Of a stretch of 64,000 nucleotides of DNA, positions 2,995 to 62,898 are shown in pieces. Both the position numbers and the translations under genes were made by a program. The stretch is from Embleya hyalina (GTDB lineage Bacteria; Actinomycetota; Actinomycetes; Streptomycetales; Streptomycetaceae), in NCBI RefSeq assembly GCF_003967355.1, contig NZ_BIFH01000047.1, positions 1 to 64,000 on the forward strand, written 5' to 3'. Each line of letters opens with the position of its first letter. Positions within the stretch are counted from its first letter, which is position 1. The notes beneath the pieces are model-generated. The model searched no databases, was not told where the DNA came from, and saw only the letters and a program-made list of their open reading frames with translations.

Positions 2995-3054
2995 GGGACG
3001 CGGCAGGCGTCGGGACCCGTGGGGACGGATCGCCCCTCCTGCGAGGCCGATGTC

Positions 3055-3205
3055 GTCGGCGCGGACGAGGCGACCCGGCTCGGCGACCCCGGGGAGCGGG
3101 GCGGGCCATCACGGTTGCGGGACAGCGCCGGGATCACACCGGACTTCGCTGCGTTCGACGCCGTCGGCGACAAACCGGTCGCCGACGGGCGAACGATATC
3201 AACGC
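3055..3205 (-). promoter_or_regulatory. Probable cobalamin riboswitch in the ABC importer leader
   Basis: Read leftward, the leader contains GTCCGGTGTGATCCCGGC, then GCTGTCCCGCAACCGTGA (about 3106-3150). This closely follows the conserved core of cobalamin riboswitches, in which a GGTG(N)A-CC-GGCGC step precedes a (C)CCCGC(A/C)ACTGT-like segment. Further downstream an AGCCGGGTCGCC element (about 3069-3080) resembles the B12-box strand. The element lies just ahead of the lipoprotein start at 2994. The core match was seen by eye. The exact borders and pairing are inferred. Confidence 0.7.
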
Positions 3206-3301
3206 CCTCGTTCACCCTCGGTGATCGGGGGTGGTTTGCCGCCCCTCGCGGCACGCGGTGCGCCGCCGCCCCCGACTTGACCGACCCGCGAGAGCGAGTG
3301 C

Positions 3302-3332
3302 TTGCTTGGAGTGCGCTCGAACTCCGTAGCGT
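3302..3332 (+). promoter_or_regulatory. MerR-type promoter and operator
   Basis: TTGCTT (3302-3307) and TAGCGT (3327-3332) are separated by exactly 19 bp, the overlong spacer typical of MerR-activated promoters. The spacer carries a perfect GGAGT/ACTCC inverted repeat (3308-3312 and 3321-3325). It lies 50 bp ahead of the merR-like start, so it most likely autoregulates the merR/aldo-keto reductase operon. Confidence 0.7.
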
Positions 3333-3382
3333 TCCCGTCATGCCCGTCCCACCGGGGCGGGCCTCCCACCGGAGGCTTCTCG

Positions 3383-3844
3383 ATGTCGGTACAGCAGACC
3401 CGGCCGTCCGCGGACTACGAGGTCGGCAAGTACTCGATCGGCGAGGTGGCCGAACGCACCGGTCTGACCGCGCACACGCTGCGCTGGTACGAGCGGATCG
3501 GCCTGATGCGGCACGTCAGCCGCCAGCGCCCCCGGACGGGAGGGGACGGTAACGGGCGGGGGAGTCGTCGTCGCTACAGCGACCACGATCTCGACTGGCT
3601 GGAGTTCGTCGGCAAGATGCGCCTGACCGGGATGCCGGTGGCGGACATGCTCCGATACGCGGAGCTGGTCCGCCAGGGCGATCACACCCGGCGCGCGCGC
3701 CGAGAGCTGTTGGAGGACCACCGCGAGGAGGTCCGCGACCGCATCAGCGATCTCCAGAGCTGCCTGCTCGTCATCGACCACAAGATCGAGACGTACGCGG
3801 ACGCGGAGGCGAGCAACGACGATGAGCACTCTCAAGCTGGGTGA
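3383..3844 (+). CDS. MerR-family transcriptional regulator
   Basis: DNA-binding regulator of 153 aa. The N-terminal winged helix shows the family signature YSIGEVAERTGLTAHTLRWYE followed by IGL. It is followed by a charged insert (RQRPRTGGDGNGRGSRR) and then the YSDHDLDWLEFV region and a long coiled-coil dimerisation helix. The ATG at 3383 is chosen because GGAGG lies at 3371-3375. The frame extends upstream to 3302, but this would run through the promoter. The gene overlaps the aldo/keto reductase gene by 23 bp, so the two are co-transcribed. It has no metal-binding cysteine set, so a small organic or electrophilic inducer is more likely than a metal. Confidence 0.88.
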   Translation: MSVQQTRPSADYEVGKYSIGEVAERTGLTAHTLRWYERIGLMRHVSRQRPRTGGDGNGRGSRRRYSDHDLDWLEFVGKMRLTGMPVADMLRYAELVRQGDHTRRARRELLEDHREEVRDRISDLQSCLLVIDHKIETYADAEASNDDEHSQAG

Positions 3845-4820
3845 GCACGGCCCGGAGATCTTCGCCCAGGGCCTGGGCTGCATGGGCATGAGCGCCTTCT
3901 ACGCGGGCGCCGAGCACGACGCGTCGGTGGCCACCCTGGAGCGGGCCCTCGACCTGGGGGTCGACCTGTTCGACACCTCCGACGTCTACGGCCCGCACAC
4001 CAACGAGGAACTGCTCGGGGCCTTCCTGGCCGAGGGCGATCGGCGCGCCCGGGTCACCCTGGCCACCAAGTTCGCGATCAGGTACACCGACGACGGCACG
4101 CGGGAGATCCGCGGCGACGCGGCCTACGTCAGGCAGGCCGCCGAGGCCAGCCTGCGCCGGCTGCGCACCGATGTGATCGACCTGTACTACATGCACCGCC
4201 GCGATGTCCGGGTGCCGATCGAGGAGACGGTCGGCGCGATGGCGGAGCTGGTCCGCGAGGGCAAGGTCCGGCACCTGGGCCTGTCCGAGGTGACCGCGAA
4301 GGAGCTGCACGCGGCGGCGGCCGTGCACCCGATCGCCGCCGTGCAGTCGGAATGGAGTCTGTTCACCCGCGACATCGAGGAGAGCGTGGTACCCGCCGTG
4401 CGTGCGGTCGGTGCCGCCCTGGTGGCCTACTCGCCGCTCGGCCGGGGCTTCCTCGGCGGTGCCTGGGCCAGCGCCGACACGCTTCCCGAGGGCGACTTCC
4501 GTCGTTTCCAGCCGCGCTTCACCGGCGACAACGCCGCGGCGAACGGGGCGATCCTGGCGCCGTTGCGGACGATCGCCGAGGCGCACGGCGCCACCCCCGC
4601 GCAGGTCGCGCTCGCCTGGGTGCAGTCGCGCACCCGGGCCTGGGGCCTGCCGGTGGTGTCGATTCCCGGGACCACCAAGCGGCACCGGCTGGAGGAGAAC
4701 GTGGCGGCGGTCGACCTGGTGCTGACCGACGCCGACCTGGCCGCGCTCGAACCGATCGCCGGACAGGTCACCGGTGCGCGCTACCCGGACATGACGGGCA
4801 CCTTCAACGACCGCGACTGA
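3822..4820 (+). CDS. Aldo/keto reductase
   Basis: NADPH-dependent carbonyl reductase of 332 aa with a TIM-barrel fold. The catalytic tetrad is visible: Asp51 and Tyr56 in DTSDVYG, Lys83 in ATKF, and His125 in YYMHRRD. It resembles the AKR13/YajO-type branch, and the GTTKRHRLEEN segment near the C-terminus is the expected cofactor-phosphate contact. The start overlaps the merR-like gene by 23 bp, so expression is likely controlled by that regulator. The physiological substrate is unknown. Detoxification of reactive aldehydes is an inference from the MerR pairing. Confidence 0.9.
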   Translation: MSTLKLGEHGPEIFAQGLGCMGMSAFYAGAEHDASVATLERALDLGVDLFDTSDVYGPHTNEELLGAFLAEGDRRARVTLATKFAIRYTDDGTREIRGDAAYVRQAAEASLRRLRTDVIDLYYMHRRDVRVPIEETVGAMAELVREGKVRHLGLSEVTAKELHAAAAVHPIAAVQSEWSLFTRDIEESVVPAVRAVGAALVAYSPLGRGFLGGAWASADTLPEGDFRRFQPRFTGDNAAANGAILAPLRTIAEAHGATPAQVALAWVQSRTRAWGLPVVSIPGTTKRHRLEENVAAVDLVLTDADLAALEPIAGQVTGARYPDMTGTFNDRD

Positions 4821-4854
4821 GCCGAACCCCGAGGCCGTCCCGCGCGGGGCGGCC

Positions 4855-6015
4855 TCAGCGGCGGCGGCCCTCGCGCTCCAGGCGCTCCACCACGTGCTGC
4901 CGCAGCAGGCCCTCGAACCCGGATTCGCGGATCCGCCGGGCGAGTGCCGAAGGCGTGGTGTTCAGGGCGGTCGCCGCCGCGTCCAGGGCCCAGCCGTGCG
5001 CGTGCAGCGTGGTGAGCAGGTGGCCGCGACGGATCTGCGCCGCGGACAGCCGGAACGTCTTGCAGTAGGCGAGTCGCCCGTCCTGGTGGGTGATGCGCTC
5101 GCCGATGTGGTTCTCCTCGTCGAGCCGGAACGAGGGCAGGAACCGGGACAGCTCGAACGGCCCCAGCCGGTACACCGACTCGCTCGTGTAGGAGCCCTCG
5201 CCGGTCAGGCCGGACAACATCAGGTGGTGGAACCGCTCCCAGGCCCCGGCCTGCCCGGCCGCCGCCCGGCGCAGGTCGGCGAGCGAGGACACCCGCTCGG
5301 CCTCGATCCCCACCACGAAGTCCGGCACCGCCTCGACGTAGTTCGCGTAGTGGAACAGCACCTCGCCGTACAGGTCTTCGAGCAGCGTCGCGTGCAGGGC
5401 CCGGTAGTCGGACGGATGCGGCACCACGAACACGCTCGCGAGCGTGTCCGCGACGTAGAGCGCGACCCCGCACTGGCCCCGATGGATCTCGAACACCTTG
5501 AGCGCGTCGGCCAGACCGCGCACCGCGTATCCGCAGTACGCCTCCTCCACGCGCGGCGACAAACCCTCGCGTACGGCCCGGTCGGTCCACTCTTCCCACA
5601 CGATCGCGGGCCCGCCGAAGTGCAGCGCGAGATATCCCTCCAGGGCCAGGTGCATCGGCAGGAAGCGCAACCGGTTGCCGCCCAGGCCGCGGGCCATCCG
5701 GCGCGTCGCGCGCCGGGGCGGCATCCTCATCCGCGCGTTGCGCGGTGTGACCGGGCGCTCCTGGAGCTGGGTGCCGAACGCCGCGGTCCGATCCCCGTCG
5801 GGATCCCACGACGCGACGAAGGCGTGCGGAATGAAGGAGCGGTAGTAGGTGCCGTCGCCGACGTCGACGATCGAGGGATCACCGACCTCGTGGACCCGCC
5901 GATCCAGTCGCAGGCCGACCAGCGGCGCCTCGCGCACCAGCGGCACCAGCCGCACCGCGCCCCACACCTGCGCGGGCCGGGCGATCAGCCCGGTCGCCGC
6001 GAAACCGCCGTTCAC
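4855..6015 (-). CDS. ARPP-like conserved protein, partner of the TROVE/vWA protein
   Basis: Protein of 386 aa with no signal peptide or membrane segment. The core (about residues 100-260) contains LPMHLALEGYLALHFGG, VEEAYCGYAVRGLADALKVFE, GVALYVADTLASVFVVPHP and LYGEVLFHYANYV. These recall the ARPP domains reported in bacterial RNA-repair and conflict loci, an assignment made from memory of motif style and therefore tentative. The C-terminus (about 310-380) looks like a helix-turn-helix or Fis-like end (HGWALDAAATALNTTPSALARRI). The GTG start overlaps the upstream stop by four bases, so it is coupled to the TROVE/vWA gene. No catalytic motif is obvious. Confidence 0.6.
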   Translation of the reverse strand: MNGGFAATGLIARPAQVWGAVRLVPLVREAPLVGLRLDRRVHEVGDPSIVDVGDGTYYRSFIPHAFVASWDPDGDRTAAFGTQLQERPVTPRNARMRMPPRRATRRMARGLGGNRLRFLPMHLALEGYLALHFGGPAIVWEEWTDRAVREGLSPRVEEAYCGYAVRGLADALKVFEIHRGQCGVALYVADTLASVFVVPHPSDYRALHATLLEDLYGEVLFHYANYVEAVPDFVVGIEAERVSSLADLRRAAAGQAGAWERFHHLMLSGLTGEGSYTSESVYRLGPFELSRFLPSFRLDEENHIGERITHQDGRLAYCKTFRLSAAQIRRGHLLTTLHAHGWALDAAATALNTTPSALARRIRESGFEGLLRQHVVERLEREGRRR

Positions 6016-10477: not shown

Positions 10478-10782
10478 GTGGTACCCGGACGTCGGATCCG
10501 TCATCTCTACCGACCGGTAATGGACCGGCGGGGTGCCCGCCTGCGTCTCATCCACCGATCATGTACCGAGCCCGATCCGTGTTCGGTTACCGCGACAGGA
10601 GCGGAGCTGCCCTGATCGTCCGGCTGTCACCGGACGCTCCACGCGGCGGTTCGCGATTGCGGGGTGATGCAACCGTGAACCTCCAAGACCTTACGCCGAG
10701 TGTCTTACGCACAGAGCACTGGCGTAGTTCCCTGGGAGGGTGTGAGTGGTTTCGCACCCGTTCGACAGGGAGGTCAGGGCTG
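10478..10782. other. Divergent intergenic region, aceE / DUF1918
   Basis: About 300 bp between the leader element and the DUF1918 gene. It contains AT-richer patches near 10550-10720, where promoters could lie, but no consensus promoter that I can place with confidence. No gene is seen. Confidence 0.4.
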
Positions 10783-11007
10783 ATGCGGGCACGAATCGGC
10801 GACCGGCTCCACGTGCACGGGAAAACGGTCGGCCGAGGCGATCGATTCGGGGAGATCATCGAGGTCAGGGGCCCGGACGGCGGGCCGCCGTACGTGGTGC
10901 GGTTCGAGGACGGGCACGCCGGTCCGGTGATCCCCGGCGCCGACGCGGTGATCGAGCGGGTCGGCGGCGCGGATCCGGCCGCGGGGCGGCCCCGGCGCAC
11001 CTGGTGA
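10783..11007 (+). CDS. DUF1918 domain protein
   Basis: Small soluble protein of 74 aa. It matches the DUF1918 pattern: MRARIGDRLHVHG at the start, then GDRFGEIIEVRGPDGGPPY and VRFEDGHAGPVIPGADAVIE, an SH3-like small barrel common in actinobacteria. Function is unknown. The ATG at 10783 follows a good GGGAGG site at 10768-10773, whereas the longer open frame runs through unsupported upstream DNA. It stands alone between aceE and the DUF3052 gene. Confidence 0.85.
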   Translation: MRARIGDRLHVHGKTVGRGDRFGEIIEVRGPDGGPPYVVRFEDGHAGPVIPGADAVIERVGGADPAAGRPRRTW

Positions 11008-11199
11008 GCTTTCGTCTGTCAGGCTGGACCCTCGAATACGTTGCGTGATCCACGCCCGGTGGGGGTAGCTTCCGCACGACACGTGGTGTGGCGTTTGTGC
11101 GAGTACGTGACCTGGGTACTTGCGCGAACAGCCTGGCGCGTGTGGACTTACGCGCGTGAGCCCCGAAGCGTTGTGGGGCCGGACAAGGGAGGTTGATTC

Positions 11200-11643
11200 G
11201 TGAGCGCGACCGCGGACCACGCGGAAGAGCGGGCCAACTCGGCCGTTCGACTTGGGTTCCAGCCCGGACAGGTGGTCCAGGAGCTCGGTTACGACGACGA
11301 CGTGGACCAGGAGTTGCGCGAGGAGATCGCGGAACTCACCGGAAACGAACTCGTCGATGAGGACTACGAGGAGGACGTTGCCGACGTCGTCCTGTTGTGG
11401 TTCCGGGAGGACGACGGCGACCTCGTCGACACCCTCGTGGATGCCCTCGCCACGCTCACGGACGGCGGCCATATCTGGCTGCTGACCCCGAAGACCGGCC
11501 GGGACGGATATGTAGAACCCTCGGACATCGGTGAAGCCGCGCCGACGGCGGGATTGGCCCGCACGACGAGCTTCGGCGCCGTCAAGGACTGGTCGGCGAC
11601 CCGTCTGGTGTCGCCCAAGGCGGTGCGCAGCGGCAAGAAGTGA
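11200..11643 (+). CDS. DUF3052 family protein
   Basis: Acidic cytoplasmic protein of 147 aa with the family blocks AVRLGFQPGQVVQELGYDDD, DVVLLWFREDDGDL and GGHIWLLTPKTG. These proteins are conserved in actinobacteria and often lie near aceE. Their role is unknown. The GTG start at 11200 has GGGAGG at 11188-11193. It is monocistronic and followed by a perfect 18-bp hairpin. Confidence 0.9.
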   Translation: MSATADHAEERANSAVRLGFQPGQVVQELGYDDDVDQELREEIAELTGNELVDEDYEEDVADVVLLWFREDDGDLVDTLVDALATLTDGGHIWLLTPKTGRDGYVEPSDIGEAAPTAGLARTTSFGAVKDWSATRLVSPKAVRSGKK

Positions 11644-11672
11644 CTCGACGCCACTGCGGTAAGCAGACGAAG

Positions 11673-11712
11673 AGACCCCGGTGCGGTGACGAAGGTCACC
11701 GCACCGGGGTCT
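11673..11712 (+). terminator. Perfect 18-bp hairpin terminator
   Basis: AGACCCCGGTGCGGTGAC (11673-11690) pairs perfectly with 11695-11712 around a GAAG loop. It lies between the convergent DUF3052 and isomerase-like genes and probably works in both directions. Confidence 0.85.
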
Positions 11713-11743
11713 CGGCTGTTCGGGGCCTCTCGGCTGTTCCGGG

Positions 11744-12691
11744 TCAGGGGCGGGTTCGGGTGAGGGTGGGGAGCAGGGCCGTCATGCGGCCGACGCCGCC
11801 GAGCGCGGCGGCGGTCAGGCGCAGGGCCGGGCCGCCGGGCAGGCCCGGGACGTGGTCGAGCAGGGGGGCCAGGGACAGCAGGCCCGCCAGGTTGTGCGGC
11901 TTCAGGTCGCGGCGGGCCAGGAGGGCGGGGACCGGGCGGCGGCCGGCGGAGGCGTCCAGGAGCAGGGCGGCGGCGCGGGCCTCGACGGCGGGGAGGTTCG
12001 GGCGGCCGGGCGGGAGCGGGAAGACCTCCCAGCCGGTGCCGGCCGCGCCGGGCGCGGCGAAGCCCCAGCCGCCGCCGGGGACGGCCAGGCCGGTACGGGC
12101 CCGGACGCCGTGCCGGGCGGCGAGCGCGCCGGTGATGTCGGCCAGGGCCAGGACGCCGGCGTCCAGCAGCTCCGGCGGCGGTTCGCCCGCGCCGCAGGGG
12201 GCCAGGTCGAGCGCGTGTACGGCCAGCTCGTAGGCGATCGCGCCGAACTGGGTGAGCAGCGGGACCGGGCCGACCTGCGAGCCGGTGCGGGCCAGTGCCA
12301 GGGACGGGTCCCGGGTGGTGGCGTCGAACGCGGCGACCAGTCGGGCCCGGCCGTCGTCGAGCGCGGCGAGCAGTTCCTCCCGATCGGCGTCGCGATGGGC
12401 CAGGACCAGGCGCGCGTTGACGTCGTCCTGGTGCATCGGCGCCGCGTCCGGGGCCCGTCGGCCGCTCGCCTCGGCCAGCAGGCGGGCGAGCAGCGGGGCG
12501 TCGGGCCAGGACGCGAGGTGGGTGATCACGGCGCGGCCGTCCCAGCCCGGCAGGCGGGACGGCGCGTCGGGGTCGACCCGGCCGGCCAGCTCGCGGAAGG
12601 CGTCCCAGGCGGCCAGGGCCCGCGTGCGCTGCGCCTCGGCGGGCATGGAGGCGGTGCCCCATGGGCCGCTGACGATCTCGATCGAGGACAT
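11744..12691 (-). CDS. Maleylpyruvate isomerase N-terminal / DinB-like mycothiol-dependent family protein
   Basis: Protein of 315 aa. The N-terminal half has the pattern of the MDMPI/DinB four-helix bundle: LAAWDAFRELAGRVDPDAPS, LPGWDGRAVITHLASW (with a metal-ligand-like histidine) and later AYELAVHALDLA. The C-terminal half is Ala/Pro-rich and less conserved. Relatives are mycothiol-dependent transferases or isomerases of unknown substrate. It is transcribed leftward, divergent from the peroxiredoxin gene and convergent with DUF3052. The start ATG 12691 is the only good candidate. Confidence 0.75.
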   Translation of the reverse strand: MSSIEIVSGPWGTASMPAEAQRTRALAAWDAFRELAGRVDPDAPSRLPGWDGRAVITHLASWPDAPLLARLLAEASGRRAPDAAPMHQDDVNARLVLAHRDADREELLAALDDGRARLVAAFDATTRDPSLALARTGSQVGPVPLLTQFGAIAYELAVHALDLAPCGAGEPPPELLDAGVLALADITGALAARHGVRARTGLAVPGGGWGFAAPGAAGTGWEVFPLPPGRPNLPAVEARAAALLLDASAGRRPVPALLARRDLKPHNLAGLLSLAPLLDHVPGLPGGPALRLTAAALGGVGRMTALLPTLTRTRP

Positions 12692-12821
12692 GCCCGCATA
12701 CTGCCCGCTTCCCCGACCACCGAACGCCGGGCCCCCACCCGCCCGTGCCGGCTTCCGTGCGCCATCCGGCTAGGCTCGCCGGCGCGAAACGGACGTCGAC
12801 CGGGACGAGGAGACACACACG

Positions 12822-13280
12822 ATGACCGTGGAGATCGGTAGCGAGGCGCCCGACTTCGAACTGCGGAACCAGCACGGCGAGTGTGTGCGGCTCGCGGACT
12901 TCCGCGGGGAGAAGAACGTGCTCCTCGTCTTCTACCCCTTCGCGTTCACCAGCGTGTGCACGGCCGAGCTCGGTGCGCTGCGCGACGGGCTCCCCGCCTT
13001 CCGGAACGACGATGCGCAGGTGCTCGCGGTCTCCTGTGACGCGCCGTTCTCGCTGCGGGTGTTCGCCGAGGCGGAGGGCTACGAGTTTCCGCTGCTCTCG
13101 GACTTCTGGCCGCACGGCGCCGCGGCTCGGGCGTACGGGGTCTTCGCCGAGGACAAGGGGTGCGCGTTGCGGGCGAGCTTCGTGATCGACCGGGACGGCG
13201 TGATCCGCTGGAGCGTGGTCAACGCGATGCCCGACGCGCGGGACCGGACGGAGTACCACAGGGCGCTCGCGGCGCTGTGA
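12822..13280 (+). CDS. Peroxiredoxin (AhpE-like)
   Basis: Thioredoxin-fold peroxidase of 152 aa that reduces peroxides through a peroxidatic cysteine. The active site is FYPFAFTSVCTAELGALRDG, giving the P-x3-T-x2-C motif with Cys near residue 46. There is no obvious resolving cysteine at the 1-Cys AhpE position, but another cysteine (AVSCDAPFS) is present. GACGAGGAGACACAC supplies a ribosome-binding site before ATG 12822. It sits just upstream of the TerD genes, consistent with an oxidative or metal-stress neighbourhood. Confidence 0.93.
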   Translation: MTVEIGSEAPDFELRNQHGECVRLADFRGEKNVLLVFYPFAFTSVCTAELGALRDGLPAFRNDDAQVLAVSCDAPFSLRVFAEAEGYEFPLLSDFWPHGAAARAYGVFAEDKGCALRASFVIDRDGVIRWSVVNAMPDARDRTEYHRALAAL

Positions 13281-13446
13281 GGCGAGGTTCGTCGGCCGGT
13301 TCGGGCGTAGCTCGGGCCGGGGCGGGTACCCATGCCGCGGCGAGACCTCCCGCCGGTCAGGAACTCATGACTAGGATCGGCGCGTTGTCACGTCGTAGGC
13401 GAAAATCCCGGGGCACCCGTTGCTCCATGAACTTTTTGGAGGACTC

Positions 13447-46849: not shown

Positions 46850-47533
46850 TCAGACCGTGATCGGTGCGGGCGTACGGGAGTCGGGAGCGGCGCGCAGTCG
46901 GTCGGCGATGTCGCGGGCGTGGCGGATCGTGTCGGCCCGGGCTTCGACGAGGACTCGGTGGGCGAGCGGACGCAGGTCCGCCAGCGCGGGATTGACGTCG
47001 GCGGCGGTGAGTTCGGCCGTGGCGTCGACGACGTCGAGCCCCCAGACGTCGCCGAGGATGCGATTCAGGTACGGCGTGGCGTGGTCCCAGCCCGCGCGCG
47101 GGGTGCCGGGAGCGTAGCCGCCGCCCCGGGCCTGGACGAGCAGGGCCGGGCGGCCGGGCACGATCGGGCGGGAGACGTCGGCGGCGCGATGGTCGGTGAT
47201 GACCAGGTCGATCCAGGTCTTGACCTGCTGGGGGACGCCGAAGTTGTACATCGGTACGGCGAGGAGGAAGGCGTCGGCGGACAGGAACTCGTCGGCCAGC
47301 TCCGTGCCGAGCGCCGTCGCCGCGCGCTGCTCCCGGGTACGGGCGTCCTCCGGCGTCGTCCGGCTCGCCTCGGCGATCGGCCAGACCGGGGGCAGGGGAT
47401 GACGACCCAGATCGCGCCGGACGAACTCGGCGTCCGGGAACGTCCGGGTCCACTCGGCCTCGGCGAGGTCGGCGAGGGATCGGCTGATCGAGCCTTCGAC
47501 GCGGATGGCGGCGTCGAGACGGAAGAACTTCAC
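46850..47533 (-). CDS. FMN-dependent NADH-azoreductase
   Basis: Flavodoxin-fold oxidoreductase of 227 aa in the AzoR/NQO family. It shows KFFRLDAAIRVEGSISRSLA (phosphate-binding loop), ADAFLLAVPMYNFGVPQQVK, TWIDLVI and ALLVQARGGGYAPGTPRAGW. The GTG start at 47533 follows AGGAG. Upstream frame extension to 47845 is rejected because it crosses the divergent promoter. It likely reduces quinones or azo compounds using NADH. It is divergent from an ECF41 sigma factor, which may control it. Confidence 0.92.
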   Translation of the reverse strand: MKFFRLDAAIRVEGSISRSLADLAEAEWTRTFPDAEFVRRDLGRHPLPPVWPIAEASRTTPEDARTREQRAATALGTELADEFLSADAFLLAVPMYNFGVPQQVKTWIDLVITDHRAADVSRPIVPGRPALLVQARGGGYAPGTPRAGWDHATPYLNRILGDVWGLDVVDATAELTAADVNPALADLRPLAHRVLVEARADTIRHARDIADRLRAAPDSRTPAPITV

Positions 47534-47786
47534 GGGGGGCTCCTGGGCTGGGGTGTCGGGGTGGTGTCGGGCCGGGTCGGGGCGTGCGGGAGCGCGCCGG
47601 GGCGGCCCGGCGTGGGGCGGGGATCTCGGGTTCTCGGGCTCGGGCCGCGCCGTGCCACGCGGGGCACGGGTGCCGCGAGGGGTCGGTGGGTCGGCGGTAA
47701 ACTCGGCTGTTGTCTCCTCCATCGATCGGCATCGTGCGGAAGCGGCTCTTCTCCCCTCTGACCGATGCCTGATCGGAAAGGTGACC

Positions 47787-48689
47787 ATGAACGGAACCGA
47801 GGCCCTGGCCGAGCGCTTCGAGGCGCATCGTGAGCACCTGCGCACGGTCGCCTATCGCATGCTCGGCTCGCTGGACGACGCCGACGACGCCGTGCAGGCG
47901 GCCTGGTTGCGGGTCGACCGGGCGGGAATCGACGGCGTCGAGAACCTGGGCGGGTGGCTGACCACGGTCACCGCGCGGGTGTGTCTCGACATGTTGCGGA
48001 TCCGCCGGACCCGGAGCGAGGAACCGCTGGCGGCGGCGCCGGAGGCGGTCCTGGAGCGGCCGGGTGGCCCCGAACCCGAGCAGGAGGCGGTGCTGGCCGA
48101 GTCCGTGGGTCTGGCCATGCTGGTCGTGCTCGGCAGGCTGACCCCCGCCGAGCGGGTCGCCTTCGTCCTGCACGACATGTTCGCCGTGCCGTTCGCCGAG
48201 ATCGCGCCGGTGGTGGGACGCACGCCGGTGGCGAGCAAGAAGCTGGCCAGCCGGGCCCGCGAGCGGGTACGCGGGCGGGCCGCGCTCGACGAGGTCGACC
48301 TGGCCCGGCACTACACCGTGGTGGACGCGTTCCTGGCCGCTTCGCGCGGTGGCGATCTGGACACGCTGGTCGAGTTGCTGGCGCCGGACGTGGTGCGCCG
48401 CGTCGACCGGTTCGCGGTACCGACCGGGGTGGCCGGCGAGGTCCGGGGCGCGCGGTCGGTGGCCGAGGAGACCCGGATGTTCGCCCACCGGGCCCGGCTG
48501 GGCGCGGTCGCCCTCGTGGACGGGCGGCCCGGCATCGTGATCGCGCCGGGTGGACGACTGTTCGCGGTACTGCGGCTGAGCTTCGCGGACGGGCGGATCA
48601 CCGACATCGAGGTGATCGCGGACCCGACGCGCCTGGCCGAGATGCCGCTGGGCGCGGGGGCACACGACGGCAGGCCGCTGGGCGGCTGA
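47787..48689 (+). CDS. ECF41 (SigJ-type) RNA polymerase sigma factor with SnoaL-like C-terminus
   Basis: Sigma factor of 300 aa. Region 2 (AYRMLGSLDDADDAVQAAWL) and region 4 (LTPAERVAFVLHDMFAVPFAE, GRTPVASKKLASRARERV) are followed by a fused SnoaL-like domain of about 120 residues (VDAFLAASRGGDLDTLVELL) that regulates activity in ECF41 factors. The usual C-terminal NPDKL motif is ADPTRLAEM here. No separate anti-sigma gene is expected. ATG 47787 has GGAAAGGTG upstream. It is divergent from the azoreductase gene. The 3' end of the gene is the start of a 116-bp duplication. Confidence 0.92.
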   Translation: MNGTEALAERFEAHREHLRTVAYRMLGSLDDADDAVQAAWLRVDRAGIDGVENLGGWLTTVTARVCLDMLRIRRTRSEEPLAAAPEAVLERPGGPEPEQEAVLAESVGLAMLVVLGRLTPAERVAFVLHDMFAVPFAEIAPVVGRTPVASKKLASRARERVRGRAALDEVDLARHYTVVDAFLAASRGGDLDTLVELLAPDVVRRVDRFAVPTGVAGEVRGARSVAEETRMFAHRARLGAVALVDGRPGIVIAPGGRLFAVLRLSFADGRITDIEVIADPTRLAEMPLGAGAHDGRPLGG

Positions 48690-49335: not shown

Positions 49336-49930
49336 CGGCCGGACGCGAGCGCGCCACGTGGTGCCGACGGGCCGGACGTCGACGCGTCGGGTGCTTTGGT
49401 GCCAACGCGTCCGACGGGTCGGTCGTCATCGGCAGTGGGCGTTCGTCGGCCGACGCGCGGCGATCCGGGCTGCGGGCCGACCGGTCGCGGCGGTGGTGGT
49501 CACCCATCCGCGTCCGGACCATGTGGCCGGCGTCGGCGTGCCGCACGAGGTGTTCCCGTGCATGCCCGGGTGCTCGTCCCGGGCCGGCGCGGACCGGATG
49601 GGTGCGGATGTGCCGGCCTGCCACCCGCCCGCCCGGAGTCTGCCCGGATCCGATCACGCGCCGCGGCTCGCCCCTCCCGATCACCCGTCCGCGCCGGGGC
49701 CCGGCCTCGCCGGACCTGCCCCGCGCGGCCTCGGCACCGGTGGCGGACGGCCTTCCGATCGCCTCCGCGCCGGGCCTCGCCCGCGGTCAGTGATCGGCCG
49801 GAGACAGCCCCGCCCGGCCCCGCGGGCGGCGTCATCCGTCCGGCCGAGCCCGATGGGCGGGGTGGTCGGGGCGGGCATACCGTGTTGCGTGGGTCACAGG
49901 AGTGCGGGGTGGTGTGTAAGTCGGGTTGTG
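49336..49930. other. Gene-free GC-rich region
   Basis: About 600 bp with no ribosome-binding site or recognisable domain in either strand. Possibly decayed sequence between the repeat array and the NRPS promoter. Confidence 0.45.
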
Positions 49931-49933
49931 AGC

Positions 49934-50030
49934 TGACGAGGCGTCAAGAGGCATGGTTTCAGGGGGAGATGGAATCTGACGGACCGTCAAGTCATATATG
50001 ACGATGCGTCAGATCCCTTTGTTTCAAAGG
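49934..50030. promoter_or_regulatory. Cluster of operator palindromes upstream of the Pls-like gene
   Basis: Three copies of TGACGNNNCGTCA lie at 49934-49946, 49977-49989 and 49999-50011, 43 and 22 bp apart (about four and two helical turns). GTCATATATGAC (49991-50002) overlaps the third, and CCTTTGTTTCAAAGG (50016-50030) follows. This is the most AT-rich part of the whole 1.5-kb gap and very probably the promoter. The binding protein is unknown. Confidence 0.7.
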
Positions 50031-50190
50031 TAGTTGATCGCATCACGAGTCGTGGCTCCGGGGCGAACGGGGTTAGTGTCGGTCGGGTTGCCACGCTCGA
50101 GAAGCGACCCGGTCGGCCAGGGGCCGGGCCCGCGACACCTCCCCGGGGAGCCGATCGCAGGCCTTGACGGGGACCAGGGATGAGGACCTC

Positions 50191-53100
50191 ATGGCCATAG
50201 CGCTACCGCTGCGCGCCACCGACGATCCGTTCGGTACCGCGCCCACGTCGACCCCCGCCGTCTACTCCGGACGGCCCGCGTCGACGCCCCGCACGCTCGT
50301 GGACGTCCTGGACGCCACCGTCCGTGCCCACCCCAACGAACCCGCCCTCGACGACGGCCGCCGTACGCTCACGTATCGTGCCCTGGCCGCCGAGGTGGAG
50401 GGACTGCGCCGGCGGCTCGCCGAGGCCGGCATCGGGGTCGGCGACCGGGTCGGCGTCCGGGTGCCCTCCGGCAGCAACGACCTGTACATCTGCATCCTCG
50501 CCGTGCTGGCCGCCGGCGCCGCCTACGTCCCGGTCGACGCCGAGGACCCCGACGAGCGCGCCGACCTGGTGTTCGGCGAGGCGGGCGTGGCCGCCGTACT
50601 CGGCGCCGAGCGCGACCTGCGCGTCACCCGCGTGGGTGACCCGCGCCCGCCCGCCCGCCCCACCCCCGCCGACGACGCCTGGATCATCTTCACCTCCGGC
50701 TCCACCGGCAAGCCCAAGGGCGTCGCGGTCACCCACCGCAACGCCGCCGCCTTCGTGGACGCCGAGGCCGGCCTCTTCCTCCAGGAGGAGCCGATCGGCC
50801 CCGGCGACCGGGTGATGGCGGGCCTGTCGGTCGCCTTCGACGCCTCCTGCGAGGAGATGTGGCTGGCCTGGCGCTACGGCGCCTGCCTGGTCACCGTGCC
50901 CCGCTCGCGGGTGCGCTCCGGCGCCGACCTCGGACCCTGGCTGGCCGAGCAGGAGATCACCGTGGTCTCCACCGTGCCGACGCTCGCCGCACTGTGGCCG
51001 ACCGAGGCGCTGCTGGACGTACGCCTGCTGATCTTCGGCGGCGAGGCCTGCCCGCCGGAGCTGGTGGAGCGGGTGGTCGCCGAGGGTCGCGAGGTGTGGA
51101 ACACCTACGGCCCGACCGAGGCCACCGTGGTCGCCTGCGGCGCGCCGCTCACCGGCGAGGGCCCGGTCCGCATCGGCCTGCCCCTCGACGGCTGGGAGCT
51201 GGCCGTGGTCGACGCCGAGGGCCGCCCCGTCGCGATGGGCGAGACCGGCGAGCTGGTGATCGGCGGCGTCGGCCTGGCCCGCTACCTCGACCCGGCCAAG
51301 GACGCGGAGAAGTACGCCCCGCTGGAATCGATGGGCTGGAAGCGCGCCTACCGCAGCGGCGACGTGGTCCGCGCCGACGCCGAGGGCCTGGTCTTCGTCG
51401 GCCGCGGCGACGAACAGATCAAACTCGGCGGCCGACGCATCGAACTGGGCGAGATCGACGCGGCGCTCCAGGCGCTGCCCGGCGTGGTGGGCGCCGCCGC
51501 GGCCGTCCGCACCGTCAAGGGCGGCAACCAGCTCCTGGTCGGCTACCTGGTCACCGGCGACGGCTGGGACCGCGAGGACGCGGTCGCCCGGCTGCGCGCC
51601 GAACTGCCCGCCGCCCTCGTACCCCGCCTCGCCCCGGTCGCCGACCTGCCCACCCGCACCTCCGGCAAGGTGGACCGCGACGCGCTGCCCTGGCCGCTCG
51701 CCGACACCGAGGACACCGGCCCCACCGAACAGCTGTACGGCACCGAGGCCTGGCTCGCCGAGCAGTGGACCGACGTGCTCGGCATCGCCCCCGACACCGC
51801 GCAGGACGACTTCTTCGCGATCGGCGGGAACAGCCTGGCCGCGGCCAGGCTCACCACGCTGCTGCGCGAGCGATATCCGGCGGCCGCGGTCGCGGACATC
51901 TACCAGCAACCCACGCTGCGCAAACTCGCCCGCCGACTGGAGCGCTCGGCGCAGGACGCGGGCGCGATCCGCAAGGTGGCGCCCACGCCGACCCGGGCCC
52001 GGGTGGCCCAGCTGCTCCTGCTCGTCCCGCTGTACACGCTGATCGGCCTGCGCTGGACGGTCGGCCTGCTCGCGCTCGGCAACGTCGCCGCCTGGTTCGG
52101 CCACTACCCGTGGGCGCCCACCGCGTCCTGGTGGTGGGTCGCGGCCGGCTGGGTCGTGTTGTTCAGCCCGCCCGGCCGGGTGGCCATCTCCGCCGGCGGC
52201 GCCCGACTGCTGCTGCGCGGGCTGCGCCCGGGGACGTATCCGCGCGGCGGCGGTGTACACCTTCGGCTGTGGGCGGCCGAGCAGCTGGCCGACGCGAGCG
52301 GGGCGACCTCGCTGTCCGGGGCCTGGCTGCTGCGCTACGCCCGCGCGCTCGGCGCCAAGGTCGGCCGCGACGTCGACCTGCACACGCTGCCGCCGGTCAC
52401 CGGCCTGCTCAAGCTCGGCCGGGGCTGCGCGGTGGAGGCCGAGGTGGACCTGTCCGGCCACTGGCTGGACGGCGACCGCCTGGAGATCGGCGCGATCAAG
52501 GTCGGCGCCGGCGCGATCGTGGGCACCCGCAGCACGCTCTTCCCGGGCGCGCGGATCGGCCGCTCGGCCGAGGTGGCGGCGGGCTCCGCGGTCACCGGCA
52601 ACGTGCCGCCGAGTCGGCGCTGGGGCGGGGTGCCGGCGATACGGCTCGGCAAGGTGGACCGGAGCCGGTTCGGCGACCGGCCGCCGCGTCGGGCGTACTG
52701 GTCGGTGCTGTACGGGGTCGGCGGGCTGCTGCCGACGCTGCTCCCGGTCCTGGCCGCGCTGCCCGCGCTGGCCGTCCTCGGCGCGTTCGTGCACCCCGGC
52801 GACGGGCTCGGTACCGCGCTCGGCGGCGCGCTGCTCGCGCTGGTGCCGGCGGTGGCCGCGTTCGCCGCGGTGTACGCGCTGTCGATCGTGCTCCTGGTCC
52901 GGCTGCTCAGCGTGGGCCTGCGTCCCGGCTACCACCCGTTGCACGGCCGGATCGGCTGGCAGGCGTGGACCGTCACCCAGTTGATGGACCTGGCCCGGGA
53001 GAAGTTGTTCCCGATCTACGCGAGCCTGTTCACGCCGGTGTGGTTGCGGGCGCTCGGGATGAAGGTGGGCAAGGGCGTCGAGGCGTCCACCGTGCTGGCG

Positions 53101-54075
53101 CTGCCGAGCCTGACCACGGTCGGTGACGGCGCGTTCCTGGCCGACGACACCCTGATCGCCTCGTACGAACTCGGCGGCGGGTGGATCCGGATCGGCGCGG
53201 CGACGATCGGCGAGCGGGCCTTCCTGGGCAACTCCGGGATGACCGCCCCCGGCCGTTCGGTGCCCGCGCGCGGCCTGGTCGGCGTGTTGTCGGCGACGCC
53301 GAAGAAGACCAAGAAGGGCGGCTCGTACCTGGGCATGCCGCCGATGCGCCTGCCGCGCTCGGCCGACGTCGCCGACCAGGGGCTGACCTACGACCCGCCG
53401 GCCCGGCTGCGCTGGGCGCGCGGCCTGGTCGAGGTGTGCCGGGCGATCCCGGTGTTGTGCTCGGCGGCGCTGGCGCTGCTCACGCTGACCGCGCTGGCCT
53501 GGCTCGGCACGTACTCGCTCGTCCTGGCCGCGCTGCTCTCCGGCCTGGTCCTGCTCGCCTGCGGGGTGGCGGCGTGCGTGGTGTCGATCGCGGCCAAGTG
53601 GCTCCTGGTCGGGCGTTTCCGCCCCGTCGAGCACCCGCTGTGGAGCGGCTTCGTGTGGCGCAACGAGTTGGCCGACACCTTCGTCGAGGTGCTGGCGGTG
53701 CCGTGGCTGGTCGGCCGGGTGTCCGGGACGTCCGTGCTCAACCTGTGGCTGCGCGGCCTGGGCGCGCACATCGGGCGCGGCGTGTGGTGCGAGAGCTACT
53801 GGCTGCCCGAGGCGGACCTGGTCACCCTGGAGGACGCGGTGAGTGTGGGGCGCGGCTGCGTACTCCAGACGCATCTCTTCCACGACCGGATCATGCGCAT
53901 GGATACTGTGATCCTTCGCGAGGGCGCCACGCTCGGCCCGCGCGGGATCGTACTGCCCGGCAGCACGATCGGGGCACGCAGCACGCTGGGCCCCGCCTCG
54001 CTGGTGATGCGGGGCGAGACCGTTCCGGAGGACACCGGCTGGCTGGGCAATCCGATCGAGGCCTGGCGACGGTAA
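50191..54075 (+). CDS. Pls-type membrane NRPS (amino-acid homopolymer synthetase, epsilon-poly-lysine synthetase-like)
   Basis: Single-module synthetase of 1294 aa. An adenylation domain (about 30-520) has FTSGSTGKPKG near 167, FDASCEEMWLAWRYG, NTYGPTEATVV and TRTSGKVDRDALPW. A carrier domain has GGNSLAAARL (Ser about 545). Then three pairs of membrane helices (from about 605, 840 and 1084) alternate with soluble parts resembling hexapeptide-repeat acyltransferases. There is no thioesterase or standard condensation domain. Length and order match Pls of poly-lysine producers. My hand-read specificity residues are D-A-E-S-I-G-T-V-V-K. ATG 50191 follows GAGGA. It overlaps an M1 peptidase gene by one base. 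Confidence 0.9.
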   Translation: MAIALPLRATDDPFGTAPTSTPAVYSGRPASTPRTLVDVLDATVRAHPNEPALDDGRRTLTYRALAAEVEGLRRRLAEAGIGVGDRVGVRVPSGSNDLYICILAVLAAGAAYVPVDAEDPDERADLVFGEAGVAAVLGAERDLRVTRVGDPRPPARPTPADDAWIIFTSGSTGKPKGVAVTHRNAAAFVDAEAGLFLQEEPIGPGDRVMAGLSVAFDASCEEMWLAWRYGACLVTVPRSRVRSGADLGPWLAEQEITVVSTVPTLAALWPTEALLDVRLLIFGGEACPPELVERVVAEGREVWNTYGPTEATVVACGAPLTGEGPVRIGLPLDGWELAVVDAEGRPVAMGETGELVIGGVGLARYLDPAKDAEKYAPLESMGWKRAYRSGDVVRADAEGLVFVGRGDEQIKLGGRRIELGEIDAALQALPGVVGAAAAVRTVKGGNQLLVGYLVTGDGWDREDAVARLRAELPAALVPRLAPVADLPTRTSGKVDRDALPWPLADTEDTGPTEQLYGTEAWLAEQWTDVLGIAPDTAQDDFFAIGGNSLAAARLTTLLRERYPAAAVADIYQQPTLRKLARRLERSAQDAGAIRKVAPTPTRARVAQLLLLVPLYTLIGLRWTVGLLALGNVAAWFGHYPWAPTASWWWVAAGWVVLFSPPGRVAISAGGARLLLRGLRPGTYPRGGGVHLRLWAAEQLADASGATSLSGAWLLRYARALGAKVGRDVDLHTLPPVTGLLKLGRGCAVEAEVDLSGHWLDGDRLEIGAIKVGAGAIVGTRSTLFPGARIGRSAEVAAGSAVTGNVPPSRRWGGVPAIRLGKVDRSRFGDRPPRRAYWSVLYGVGGLLPTLLPVLAALPALAVLGAFVHPGDGLGTALGGALLALVPAVAAFAAVYALSIVLLVRLLSVGLRPGYHPLHGRIGWQAWTVTQLMDLAREKLFPIYASLFTPVWLRALGMKVGKGVEASTVLALPSLTTVGDGAFLADDTLIASYELGGGWIRIGAATIGERAFLGNSGMTAPGRSVPARGLVGVLSATPKKTKKGGSYLGMPPMRLPRSADVADQGLTYDPPARLRWARGLVEVCRAIPVLCSAALALLTLTALAWLGTYSLVLAALLSGLVLLACGVAACVVSIAAKWLLVGRFRPVEHPLWSGFVWRNELADTFVEVLAVPWLVGRVSGTSVLNLWLRGLGAHIGRGVWCESYWLPEADLVTLEDAVSVGRGCVLQTHLFHDRIMRMDTVILREGATLGPRGIVLPGSTIGARSTLGPASLVMRGETVPEDTGWLGNPIEAWRR

Positions 54076-55580
54076 TGCGTTTCGAGACGGCGTCGCGCGG
54101 CGCGGCTCGTCCCGCGACGGTGGGCGCGACGGGGACGGAGCACGAATCGGTGATCGACCAGGGGCCGCGCTCGGGTGCCGGCGAGGCGTACTTCGCCACA
54201 CACGGCGACCCGCGCTATCGCGTACACCGCTACGAGTTGACCCTGGACTACCGCCCGGGCCCCAACCGCCTGGCCGGCGGCGCCCGGATCGGCGCGGTGG
54301 CCGGGGAGCACGCGCTCGCCGAGATCGTGCTCGACCTGGCCGAGTTCCGCATCGGTCGAGTGCTCGTGGACGGCCGGCAGGCGCGCTACACGCACCGCGC
54401 GGGCAAGTTGCGGGTGCGCCCCGGCACAGCGATCCGGGCCCGGGCGGCGTTCACCGTCGAGGTGCACTACGTCGGCAATCCCAAGCCGGTACGCAGCCCC
54501 TGGGGCGGGGTCGGCTGGGAGGAGTTGACCGACGGCTCGCTCGTGGCCGGTCAGCCGATCGGCGCGCCGTCCTGGTACCCGTGCAACGACCGGGTCGACG
54601 ACAAGGCGGCCTACCAGATCTCGGTCACCGCGCCGTCGATGTACACCGTGGTGGTCGGCGGCCGGCTGCTCACCCGCAGCAGCCGGGGCGGGAACTCCAC
54701 CTGGGTCTACGAGCAGCCCGCGCCCACCGCGAGCTACCTGGTCACCGTCTCGATCGGGCGCTACGAGACCGTGCCGCTCCCGGGGACGGGCGTACCGCAG
54801 GTCGCGCACGTGCCGGGGCGGCTGGTGTCCCGGTTCCGGTCGGACTTCGGCCGCCAGCCGCAGATGATGACGCTGTTCGAGGAACTGTTCGGGCCGTACC
54901 CGTTCGGCGAGTACACCGTGGTGGTCACCGACGACGACCTCGACATCCCGATCGAGGCCCAGGGGATGGCCACCTTCGGGGCCAATCACGTGGACGGCGC
55001 GCGCGGGGCCGAACGGCTGGTCGCGCACGAGTTGGCGCACCAGTGGTTCGGCAACAGCGTCGGTCTGGCCGAGTGGCGGCACATCTGGCTGAACGAGGGC
55101 TTCGCGCGCTACGCGGAGTGGTTGTGGTCCGAGCGCTCGGGCGGGCGTACCGCCGCCGTGCAGGCCGCGATCGAGCACACCGACCTGAGCGGGCGGCCGC
55201 AGGACCTGCTGCTCGGGTCGCCGCGCCCGAAGCTGATCTTCGACGACCGGATCTACGGGCGGGGCGCGCTGACCGTGCACGCGGTGCGGTGTGCGCTGGG
55301 CGACGTGGCGTTCTTCGCGATGTTGCGGGAGTGGGCCACGGCACACCGACACGGGCTGGTCACCACCGACGACTTCATCGCGCACGCGGGGCGGTACGCC
55401 TCCCGGCCGCTGGACACGTTGTTCGAGGCGTGGTTGGACCGCGAGGCGCTGCCGCCGCTGCCGGTCGGGCAGGTCGTTTCCGCGCCGCCGTCCGCGCCGG
55501 CCGCACCCGCCGCGCCGCCGCAGCGACGGGGGCGGTTGGGGTGGCCCTGGACGTCGGGGCAGGGCGGATCCTCCGGCTGA
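54075..55580 (+). CDS. M1-family zinc metallopeptidase (Pld-like)
   Basis: Aminopeptidase-type protein of 501 aa. The zinc site is HELAHQWFGN (about residue 318) with the third ligand in NEGFARYAEW, and the substrate-recognition GAMEN-like loop is EAQGMATFG. An N-terminal saddle domain (YRVHRYELTLDYRPGPNRLA, WYPCNDRVDDKAAYQISVTA) precedes it. The C-terminal helical domain is short, so the protein is truncated relative to typical 800-residue M1 enzymes. It starts inside the NRPS stop (TAATG). In poly-lysine producers M1-type enzymes next to pls degrade the polymer, so this is a likely self-protection or trimming enzyme. Confidence 0.9.
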   Translation: MRFETASRGAARPATVGATGTEHESVIDQGPRSGAGEAYFATHGDPRYRVHRYELTLDYRPGPNRLAGGARIGAVAGEHALAEIVLDLAEFRIGRVLVDGRQARYTHRAGKLRVRPGTAIRARAAFTVEVHYVGNPKPVRSPWGGVGWEELTDGSLVAGQPIGAPSWYPCNDRVDDKAAYQISVTAPSMYTVVVGGRLLTRSSRGGNSTWVYEQPAPTASYLVTVSIGRYETVPLPGTGVPQVAHVPGRLVSRFRSDFGRQPQMMTLFEELFGPYPFGEYTVVVTDDDLDIPIEAQGMATFGANHVDGARGAERLVAHELAHQWFGNSVGLAEWRHIWLNEGFARYAEWLWSERSGGRTAAVQAAIEHTDLSGRPQDLLLGSPRPKLIFDDRIYGRGALTVHAVRCALGDVAFFAMLREWATAHRHGLVTTDDFIAHAGRYASRPLDTLFEAWLDREALPPLPVGQVVSAPPSAPAAPAAPPQRRGRLGWPWTSGQGGSSG

Positions 55581-61375: not shown

Positions 61376-61605
61376 TTGCGGGCAGAGCATTTCGACACCC
61401 CCGAACGGCGCGGCCGACTGCACACCCACATGGCACGCGCCTGGTGGCTCCGGGGCAAGCCGGACCAAACCATCGAAGCCTTGAACGCGGCGCTACGCGA
61501 GGAGCCCGCTGAGGTTCGAAACAGGCCTTCCATGCGAAAGCCGACGAGTGAGCTCGTGCGGCGCCAGCCCCGTGCGGTCGGCATCCGGTGGGAGTCAGCC
61601 GAGGC
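61376..61605 (+). pseudogene. 3' fragment of an XRE/TPR-type regulator gene
   Basis: The frame reads AEHFDTPERRGRLHTHMARA, WWLRGKPDQTIEALNAALRE, EPAEVRNRPSMRKPTSELVR. This is the usual C-terminal helical-repeat end of streptomycete XRE regulators with TPR-like tails. The HTH and most of the protein are missing, there is no ribosome-binding site, and after 61605 the frame runs antisense into the SDR gene. Confidence 0.6.
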
Positions 61606-62338
61606 CGCCGTTGGTGTGGAGGGTTTGGGCGGTCAGCCAGCGGGCTTCGGGGCCGGCCAGGAAGGCGATCACGTCGGCGATGTCGGTGGGGAGGCCGAGG
61701 CGGCGTAGGGGGGTTTGGGCGGGGACGGCGGCCAGGACCTCCGGGGGATTCGACGCGTTGAGGAGGTCGGTGTCGGTGGCGCCCGGGGCGACCGTGTTGA
61801 CGGTGATGCCTCGTGGGCCGAGTTCGTGGGCGGCGACCTTGGTGAGTTGTTCCAGGGCGCCCTTGCTCGCCGCGTAGGCCGCGATGCCGGGGGCCGGGCG
61901 GATGGTGTTGAGGGTGGAGACGTTGATGATTCGGCCGCCGTCTCGCATGTGGCGGGCCGCGTAGCGGATGGTCAGGAACGGGGCTTTGGTGTTGACGGAC
62001 AGCACACGGTCGAAATCCCGTTCGGTCAGCTCGGCGATCGGGATCGAGGCGGTGCCCGTCGCGGCGTTGTTGACCAGGATGTCGAGGCCGCCCAGGTGCT
62101 CGTCGGCCGTCGCCATGAAGCTCTCGGCCGCGCCCGGCTCGCCCAGATCGACCCGTACCGCCCGGGCCCGGCCGCCCGCCGCCTCGACCGCCGCGACCAC
62201 CGCCTCGGCGGCGGTCTCCTCGCGGGCGTAGCCGAACACCACATCCGCGCCGTCCCGGGCCAGCCGCTCCACCACCGCTCGCCCGATCCCGCGCGAGCCT
62301 CCCGTGACCACCGCCGCCCTGCCCTTCAGTGCCGACAT
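61595..62338 (-). CDS. SDR family oxidoreductase (3-oxoacyl-ACP reductase-like)
   Basis: NAD(P)-dependent reductase of 247 aa: AVVTGGSRGIGRAVVERLAR, DILVNNAATGTASIPIAELT, NVSTLNTIRPAPGIAAYAAS (catalytic Ser/Tyr), KGALEQLTKVAAHELGPRGI and TVNTVAPGATDTDLL. The end AQTLHTNGGLG is typical of the family. ATG 62338 follows GGAGGTATGCC. It is divergent from the LysR gene at 62899, which may regulate it. Confidence 0.93.
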   Translation of the reverse strand: MSALKGRAAVVTGGSRGIGRAVVERLARDGADVVFGYAREETAAEAVVAAVEAAGGRARAVRVDLGEPGAAESFMATADEHLGGLDILVNNAATGTASIPIAELTERDFDRVLSVNTKAPFLTIRYAARHMRDGGRIINVSTLNTIRPAPGIAAYAASKGALEQLTKVAAHELGPRGITVNTVAPGATDTDLLNASNPPEVLAAVPAQTPLRRLGLPTDIADVIAFLAGPEARWLTAQTLHTNGGLG

Positions 62339-62898
62339 GGCATACCTCCGATCGGTTCGATCGCCCGTTTCGGTCGGAGCCTGCGCCGCCCGAGGGGCGC
62401 GGAAACTCGGCCGCGCAGGACGGCCGGGGACGGCACGTGCGGAATCAGCAGGCTCGGGCGGCCCGTTCCGTCGGCGCGCGGTCCGGATGTCGCCGCGCAG
62501 ATCACCCGGGAGGCCGTACACCCGTTCGCCAAAGCCGACGTCGCGTTTCGCTGGACCATGAACCTGTTCTGATCCACAGTCGTAGCGAACGGATTGCAAC
62601 GAGCCGATTACCCAATCCATTCACCGCGCACCGGTCGAACCGTGCCGGTCGCAGCGCAACGCGGCACCGCCGGGCGGGCCGGCGCGGTGTTCGAGGCAGT
62701 CCCCTCGGGCGCCGGGCCGGCTCGCGCGGTCGCTTCGTGATCGATGTCGCGCCCCGTTCCAGTCGCCCCCCGGAACCACGTCTCACCCTGGAGGAACACC
62801 ATGGTCGACAGGCACCGTGCGGCACTCCGAGCGCCATCTCGCACCCGGGCACACGAGCGGGTCGAAATCCTGCTCCCGGGCGGAGGCATCGATACCCC
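62339..62898. other. Divergent region, SDR / LysR
   Basis: 560 bp. No complete gene. A short frame ending at 62572 (EAVHPFAKADVAFRWTMNLF then stop) reads like the tail of a lost protein. LysR-type T-N11-A operator sites are likely near 62570-62620, where the DNA is AT-richer, but none is certain. Confidence 0.4.

Follow-up and report, generated by a model that had tools for sequence, protein, structure and literature searches.

A predicted pls–pldII operon for epsilon-poly-L-lysine in Embleya hyalina

Introduction

Epsilon-poly-L-lysine is a commercial food preservative. Operons that pair its synthetase gene with a peptidase gene are described from Streptomyces and Corynebacterium, whereas the other three homopolymer synthetases are placed in a different gene context (PMC8117764). 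According to the same source, the synthetase (Pls) of Corynebacterium variabile is 51% identical to that of Streptomyces albulus, and its expression in the heterologous host S. coelicolor confirmed that it makes epsilon-poly-L-lysine. The same gene pair, pls–pldII, is treated in PMC9223678, which reports translational coupling of the two genes, a location of PldII outside the membrane, and a longer polymer and lower self-tolerance when pldII is repressed. Here we analyse a 64,000-nucleotide stretch of the Embleya hyalina genome (hereafter, the window), in which positions 50191-55580 very probably constitute a pls–pldII operon for the production and trimming of epsilon-poly-L-lysine, as judged by sequence comparison.

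The synthetase gene and its domains

The pls gene (50191..54075, plus strand) starts with an ATG at 50191, ends with a TAA at 54073-54075 and is translated into 1294 amino acids; an alternative upstream start, TTG at 50164, would extend the protein to 1303 residues. The first-pass annotation of this DNA had proposed the same coordinates and length together with an A–T and triple-segment Pls architecture, all of which were recovered by open reading frame, Pfam and TIGR02353 analysis; the assignment as an epsilon-poly-L-lysine synthetase draws in addition on comparison with PDB entry 7WEW. A minus-strand ORF (50203-54201, 1332 aa) covering the same region looks like a GC-rich shadow of pls, because the GC content at codon positions 1, 2 and 3 of pls is 75, 54 and 96%, respectively.

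The adenylation (A) domain (50311..51687) was delineated by Pfam (AMP-binding, residues 41-364, 1.9e-64) and by its similarity to 7WEW, and its C-terminal subdomain corresponds to a Pfam match at residues 421-493 under the Pfam cut-off, with the A10 lysine at residue 493. A Kyte-Doolittle hydrophobic stretch within this domain (residues 97-118) is probably not a membrane helix. The thiolation, or carrier, domain (51751..51939; PP-binding, residues 521-583, 7.6e-12) contains the motif GGNSLAAA with the phosphopantetheine serine, which is present in all 85 full-length rows of our alignment, that is, the window protein, 80 relatives and four other sequences including a Dab-type paralogue. The relatives come from a scan of named loci in which 591 of the 595 candidate stretches encoded one; only the best 80 of these at least 591 relatives were kept, so that the sample is skewed to close relatives.

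The single A–T module is followed by a membrane polymerising domain of the Pls/PosA type (52003..54057), as is characteristic of Pls. This region consists of three tandem acyltransferase-like segments with hydrophobic stretches between them, and residues 605-1289 match the complete NCBIfam model of the Pls/PosA terminal domain (TIGR02353, model positions 1-695 of 695) with 780.7 bits (cut-off, 423.1). The three segments are similar to each other, with z scores of about 20, 11 and 12 over shuffled controls (200 shuffles each), and the Kyte-Doolittle stretches lie near residues 608-629, 838-912 and 1078-1143; in a Pls, six transmembrane helices would be expected to separate the segments. The third segment carries QTHLF(H/E)DR at residues 1226-1233 (53866-53889), a candidate catalytic motif that reads QTHLFHDR in 84 of the 85 full-length rows and QTHLFEDR in the remaining one, with an invariant histidine, and that is common to Lys-type enzymes and the Dab-type paralogue. 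From residue 597 on, 78 positions are invariant, 8 of them at 672-786, 35 at 904-1087 and 35 at 1136-1288, a set shaped mostly by one distant row whose misalignment in the first segment could depress the first count. This distribution suggests that the catalytic centre of the polymerising domain might lie in the second and third segments. Kito et al. (2013) are said to have carried out a mutational study of these C domains. In the predicted model described in PMC10522769, the three segments are left-handed beta-helices, arranged in a roughly threefold-symmetric packing.

The adenylation pocket and the choice of monomer

The closest PDB sequence to the window protein is 7WEW, the A domain of the S. 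albulus epsilon-poly-L-lysine synthase (662 bits; the next entry scores 328). Alignment to 7WEW, with 66.7% identity over 483 residues, places the ten pocket positions at residues 217, 218, 221, 260, 281, 283, 305, 313, 314 and 493, which read DAESIGTVVK, exactly as had been read by hand in the first-pass annotation, and all ten are identical to those of the S. albulus enzyme. All 80 named loci (the best 80 of at least 591 relatives) carry this code, as do all 23 Pls-type loci from genomes of the family (L092-L111 and L113-L115), the latter of which were picked mostly by closeness to 7WEW and represent 21 distinct genes because L113 and L115 are the same genes as L092 and L101.

The main alternative reading of the locus is a Pls-family enzyme that polymerises diaminobutyrate (Dab), diaminopropionate (Dap), ornithine or beta-lysine, accompanied by a peptidase degrading that polymer. 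Such enzymes do have a similar C-terminal domain and likewise carry Glu at pocket position 3 (PMC10522769). However, the pocket codes given there differ from that of the window: the ornithine enzyme has DMEHNGTVSK and the beta-lysine enzyme DGESISVVNK, and position 2 is Ala in lysine enzymes and Phe in Dap/Dab enzymes; replacement of Met by Ala at this position is reported to have raised the efficiency of the ornithine enzyme with L-lysine nearly tenfold. The window enzyme has Ala at position 2, not the Met, Gly or Phe of the ornithine, beta-lysine and Dap/Dab enzymes, its peptidase neighbour is the Lys-type context, unlike that of Dab/Dap synthetases in the account of PMC8117764, and the Dab-type gene of this genome is located elsewhere (see below). 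We consider this alternative very improbable. Identity with the 7WEW code and mismatch to the ornithine, beta-lysine and Dap/Dab codes together indicate a Lys-type pocket, with lysine as the clear first choice of the predicted monomer; a new monomer was rejected in view of the identity of the pocket with that of 7WEW. The proposal of an epsilon-poly-amino-acid system in the first-pass annotation thus holds at the level of sequence, but leaving the monomer open was too cautious, given that the pocket equals that of 7WEW.

A second Pls/PosA system in the same genome

The genome contains one other TIGR02353 match above the cut-off, on contig C13 (111802-113775, minus strand), and no further ones. 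It belongs to a Pls/PosA-family synthetase of 1406 aa with the pocket DFECLSAVTK (minus strand, 5791-10011 of L112, the stretch taken from this contig), which is 35.3% identical to the window synthetase. On the same strand of L112 are encoded a class III aminotransferase (4353-5711) that passes the cut-off of TIGR00709, the diaminobutyrate–2-oxoglutarate transaminase family, while remaining below the cut-offs of narrower models of the same name, and an aspartate kinase (3008-4273); an ORF for an MMPL-family transporter (10531-13338, plus strand) is divergent from the synthetase gene. No pddB-like racemase gene was found beside the synthetase among the four ORF readings searched with Pfam. Transaminase and kinase genes are described as companions of polydiaminobutyrate synthetases in both PMC8117764 and PMC8225329. 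The C13 locus is therefore a probable gamma-polydiaminobutyrate system, and its pocket and its diaminobutyrate transaminase and aspartate kinase neighbours make the Dab option a better fit for this gene than for the one in the window. Separate systems for lysine and Dab polymers are also reported from some Streptomyces strains (PMC8117764). Their apparent coexistence in the present genome means that the assignment of the monomer could be tested in a single strain.

The M1 peptidase gene

Immediately after pls lies a gene for a PldII-like M1 zinc aminopeptidase of 501 aa (54075..55580, plus strand), identified by Pfam (Peptidase_M1, 1.7e-26; M1_N, 4.7e-06), NCBIfam and conservation in relatives. 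Its reading frame extends back as far as a GTG at 53181, but the ATG at 54075 is the likely start, so that the real overlap of the two genes is a single base, within TAATG at 54073-54077. The overlapping zinc peptidase noted in the first-pass annotation is an M1 family member with a zinc site, and its proposed fit to a polymer-degrading enzyme is supported by sequence comparison. From the overlap, the peptidase is probably translationally coupled to pls. An M1 gene with HExxH-18-E is located directly 3' of pls in all 80 relatives (the best 80 of at least 591), although a start codon near the junction was found by rule in only 73 of them.

The zinc site, HELAH-X18-E, spans 55026..55097; HELAH is present in 80 of 80 relatives, as is the Glu of the segment PIEAQG, which we take to be the equivalent of GxMEN. 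What is presumably the catalytic Tyr occurs in the window peptidase and in the 12 commonest types of the corresponding segment, which cover 48 of the 80 relatives. The protein thus has the zinc site, the Glu and the Tyr expected of an M1 zinc aminopeptidase. Loss of the aminopeptidase Glu, considered because the segment reads EAQG in place of GAMEN, was ruled out: PIEAQ aligned with AMENW retains the Glu, again in 80 of 80 relatives. The enzyme is called endo-type in some places of PMC9223678 and end-cleaving in others; the conserved Glu would be consistent with an exo mode. No strong hydrophobic segment was detected in the first 100 residues of the window peptidase (best 19-residue Kyte-Doolittle mean, 1.32), and the N-terminal mean attains 1.6 in two of the 80 relatives.

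Genomic context

Positions 49828-55465 align to Embleya sp. NBC_00896 (NZ_CP108777.1) with 85.2% DNA identity, and there is no other alignment between the window and the 23.9 kb stretch of NBC_00896 at E values up to 1e-20. The aligned region upstream of pls (49828..50190, plus strand) probably contains the promoter or leader. ORFs of at least 90 aa in window positions 40000-64000 other than the pair have matches in no more than 11 of these 80 loci, so that pls and the peptidase gene are the sole conserved unit, and no larger cluster was found around pls in these loci, which include at most 9 kb of flank. The value of 11 loci belongs to a short-chain dehydrogenase ORF (61595-62620); its top three matches are weak, at 37-39%, and are encoded on the strand opposite to that of pls. 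Among the neighbouring genes, those with Pfam matches encode a Na+/H+ exchanger, an ECF sigma factor, two short-chain dehydrogenases, a DUF5753 HTH regulator, a MerR regulator and a LysR regulator. The ECF-type sigma factor (47505-48689, plus strand) lies upstream of pls, shows a weak SnoaL-like match under the cut-off and has no match among the loci of the 80 relatives.

Family placement and distribution

A maximum-likelihood tree was built from the A–T region of 54 rows. Besides the window, 7WEW and the paralogue L112, these comprised 34 loci chosen from the 80 named ones and 17 from genomes of the family, two of the latter being repeats of the same gene. The window protein falls in a clade of 35 rows (support 100/100) that includes members of the Streptomycetaceae, Pseudonocardiaceae, Micromonosporaceae, Streptosporangiaceae and Nocardiaceae. 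It adjoins the 7WEW clade (99/99), which comprises 14 rows of family genomes, and the fork uniting the two is weak (82/59). Four family rows, L109 and L108/L111/L114, are outside both Pls clades, and the Dab-type L112 is far outside them on a very long branch, which renders its own position and the root of the tree unsure. In the phylogeny of the A domain that had been suggested as a check, the window accordingly sides with 7WEW, the sole experimentally known sequence in the tree, and not with the single Dab-type row, although the joining fork is the weak one; we could assign no experimentally confirmed member to the window clade itself.

Within the genus, the best matches in three further genomes are 97.9, 93.4 and 85.8% identical (the last is a fragment), each adjoining a similar peptidase gene. 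One of them, G020, has members of both clades: L119 shares 93.4% identity with the window protein, and L107, which groups with 7WEW, has identities of 69.1% with L113 and 58.3% with the window protein. Across the family, the 7WEW A domain is matched in 211 of the 394 sampled genomes at E values up to 1e-120, and the system would therefore seem to be common. In one family genome, L114 (G313:C1:333000-346000) encodes a Pls with the DAESIGTVVK pocket, and comparison of this 13 kb stretch with the M1 peptidase of the window gave no match at E values up to 1e-10; the same genome also has the peptidase-bearing Pls L115. Plasmids from Mycobacterium avium and M. intracellulare (NZ_CP023152.1, NZ_AP012556.1, NZ_CP076859.1, NZ_CP076857.1 and NZ_CP059000.1) also carry Pls/PosA-family genes, with about 59.6% identity over 91% of the window protein.

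A silent or non-functional operon, yielding no polymer in this organism, would have a precedent in C. variabile, in which the native pls reportedly gave no detectable polymer and yet works in S. coelicolor (PMC8117764). However, both window ORFs are intact with conserved catalytic motifs, and TIGR02353 matches above the cut-off occur in all four genus genomes examined (in one, G031, as a fragment in a 1650-contig assembly with no A-domain match at 1e-120), which speaks to decay rather than to expression. We regard a silent or non-functional operon as very improbable and return to a working pls–pldII pair as the preferred reading.

By analogy with the described systems, the A domain would adenylate L-lysine and load it onto the carrier domain, and the membrane-embedded triple C domain would link lysines through alpha-carboxyl to epsilon-amino bonds and pass the chain outward as epsilon-poly-L-lysine. 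The coupled M1 peptidase might then remove residues from the chain and thereby set its length, protect the producer, or both. Points against this reading are the limited identity to the S. albulus-like synthetase L113, the separate clade, the weak fork and a peptidase with no strong hydrophobic N-terminal segment, although PldII is placed outside the membrane in PMC9223678. A distinct role for the window clade is conceivable, as a second Pls lineage in at least five actinobacterial families that shares the Lys pocket, produces polylysine of another chain length or role (e.g., cell-associated instead of secreted) and has a peptidase without an obvious export signal, but we consider it unlikely. 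Given the commercial use of the polymer, another intact pls–pldII operon is a modest resource.

Comparison with described systems

The window operon matches well-studied systems that are already known in many actinobacteria. Like the Pls–PldII system of S. albulus, it has the A–T–triple C layout, the same ten-residue pocket and an M1 gene directly after pls, and in the operon of C. variabile a peptidase gene likewise follows pls. However, the 7WEW and window synthetases belong to different clades: L113, the A domain of which is 93% identical to 7WEW, is 57.4% identical to the window synthetase over the full length, and the respective peptidases share about 44% identity. A literature search joining Embleya with poly-lysine gave no match, from which we claim no absence from print. 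In Embleya sp. NBC_00896, the putative Pls is 89.6% identical to the window protein and is encoded in a stretch without annotated features in PLSDB (NZ_CP108777.1); the Pls of the genus genome G004 is nearer still, at 97.9%. The gamma-poly-Dab synthetases PldA and PddA and the delta-poly-ornithine synthetase PosA share the Pls/PosA family and the general mechanism with the window enzyme but have unlike pockets, and the Dab enzymes also differ in gene context, as described in PMC8117764.
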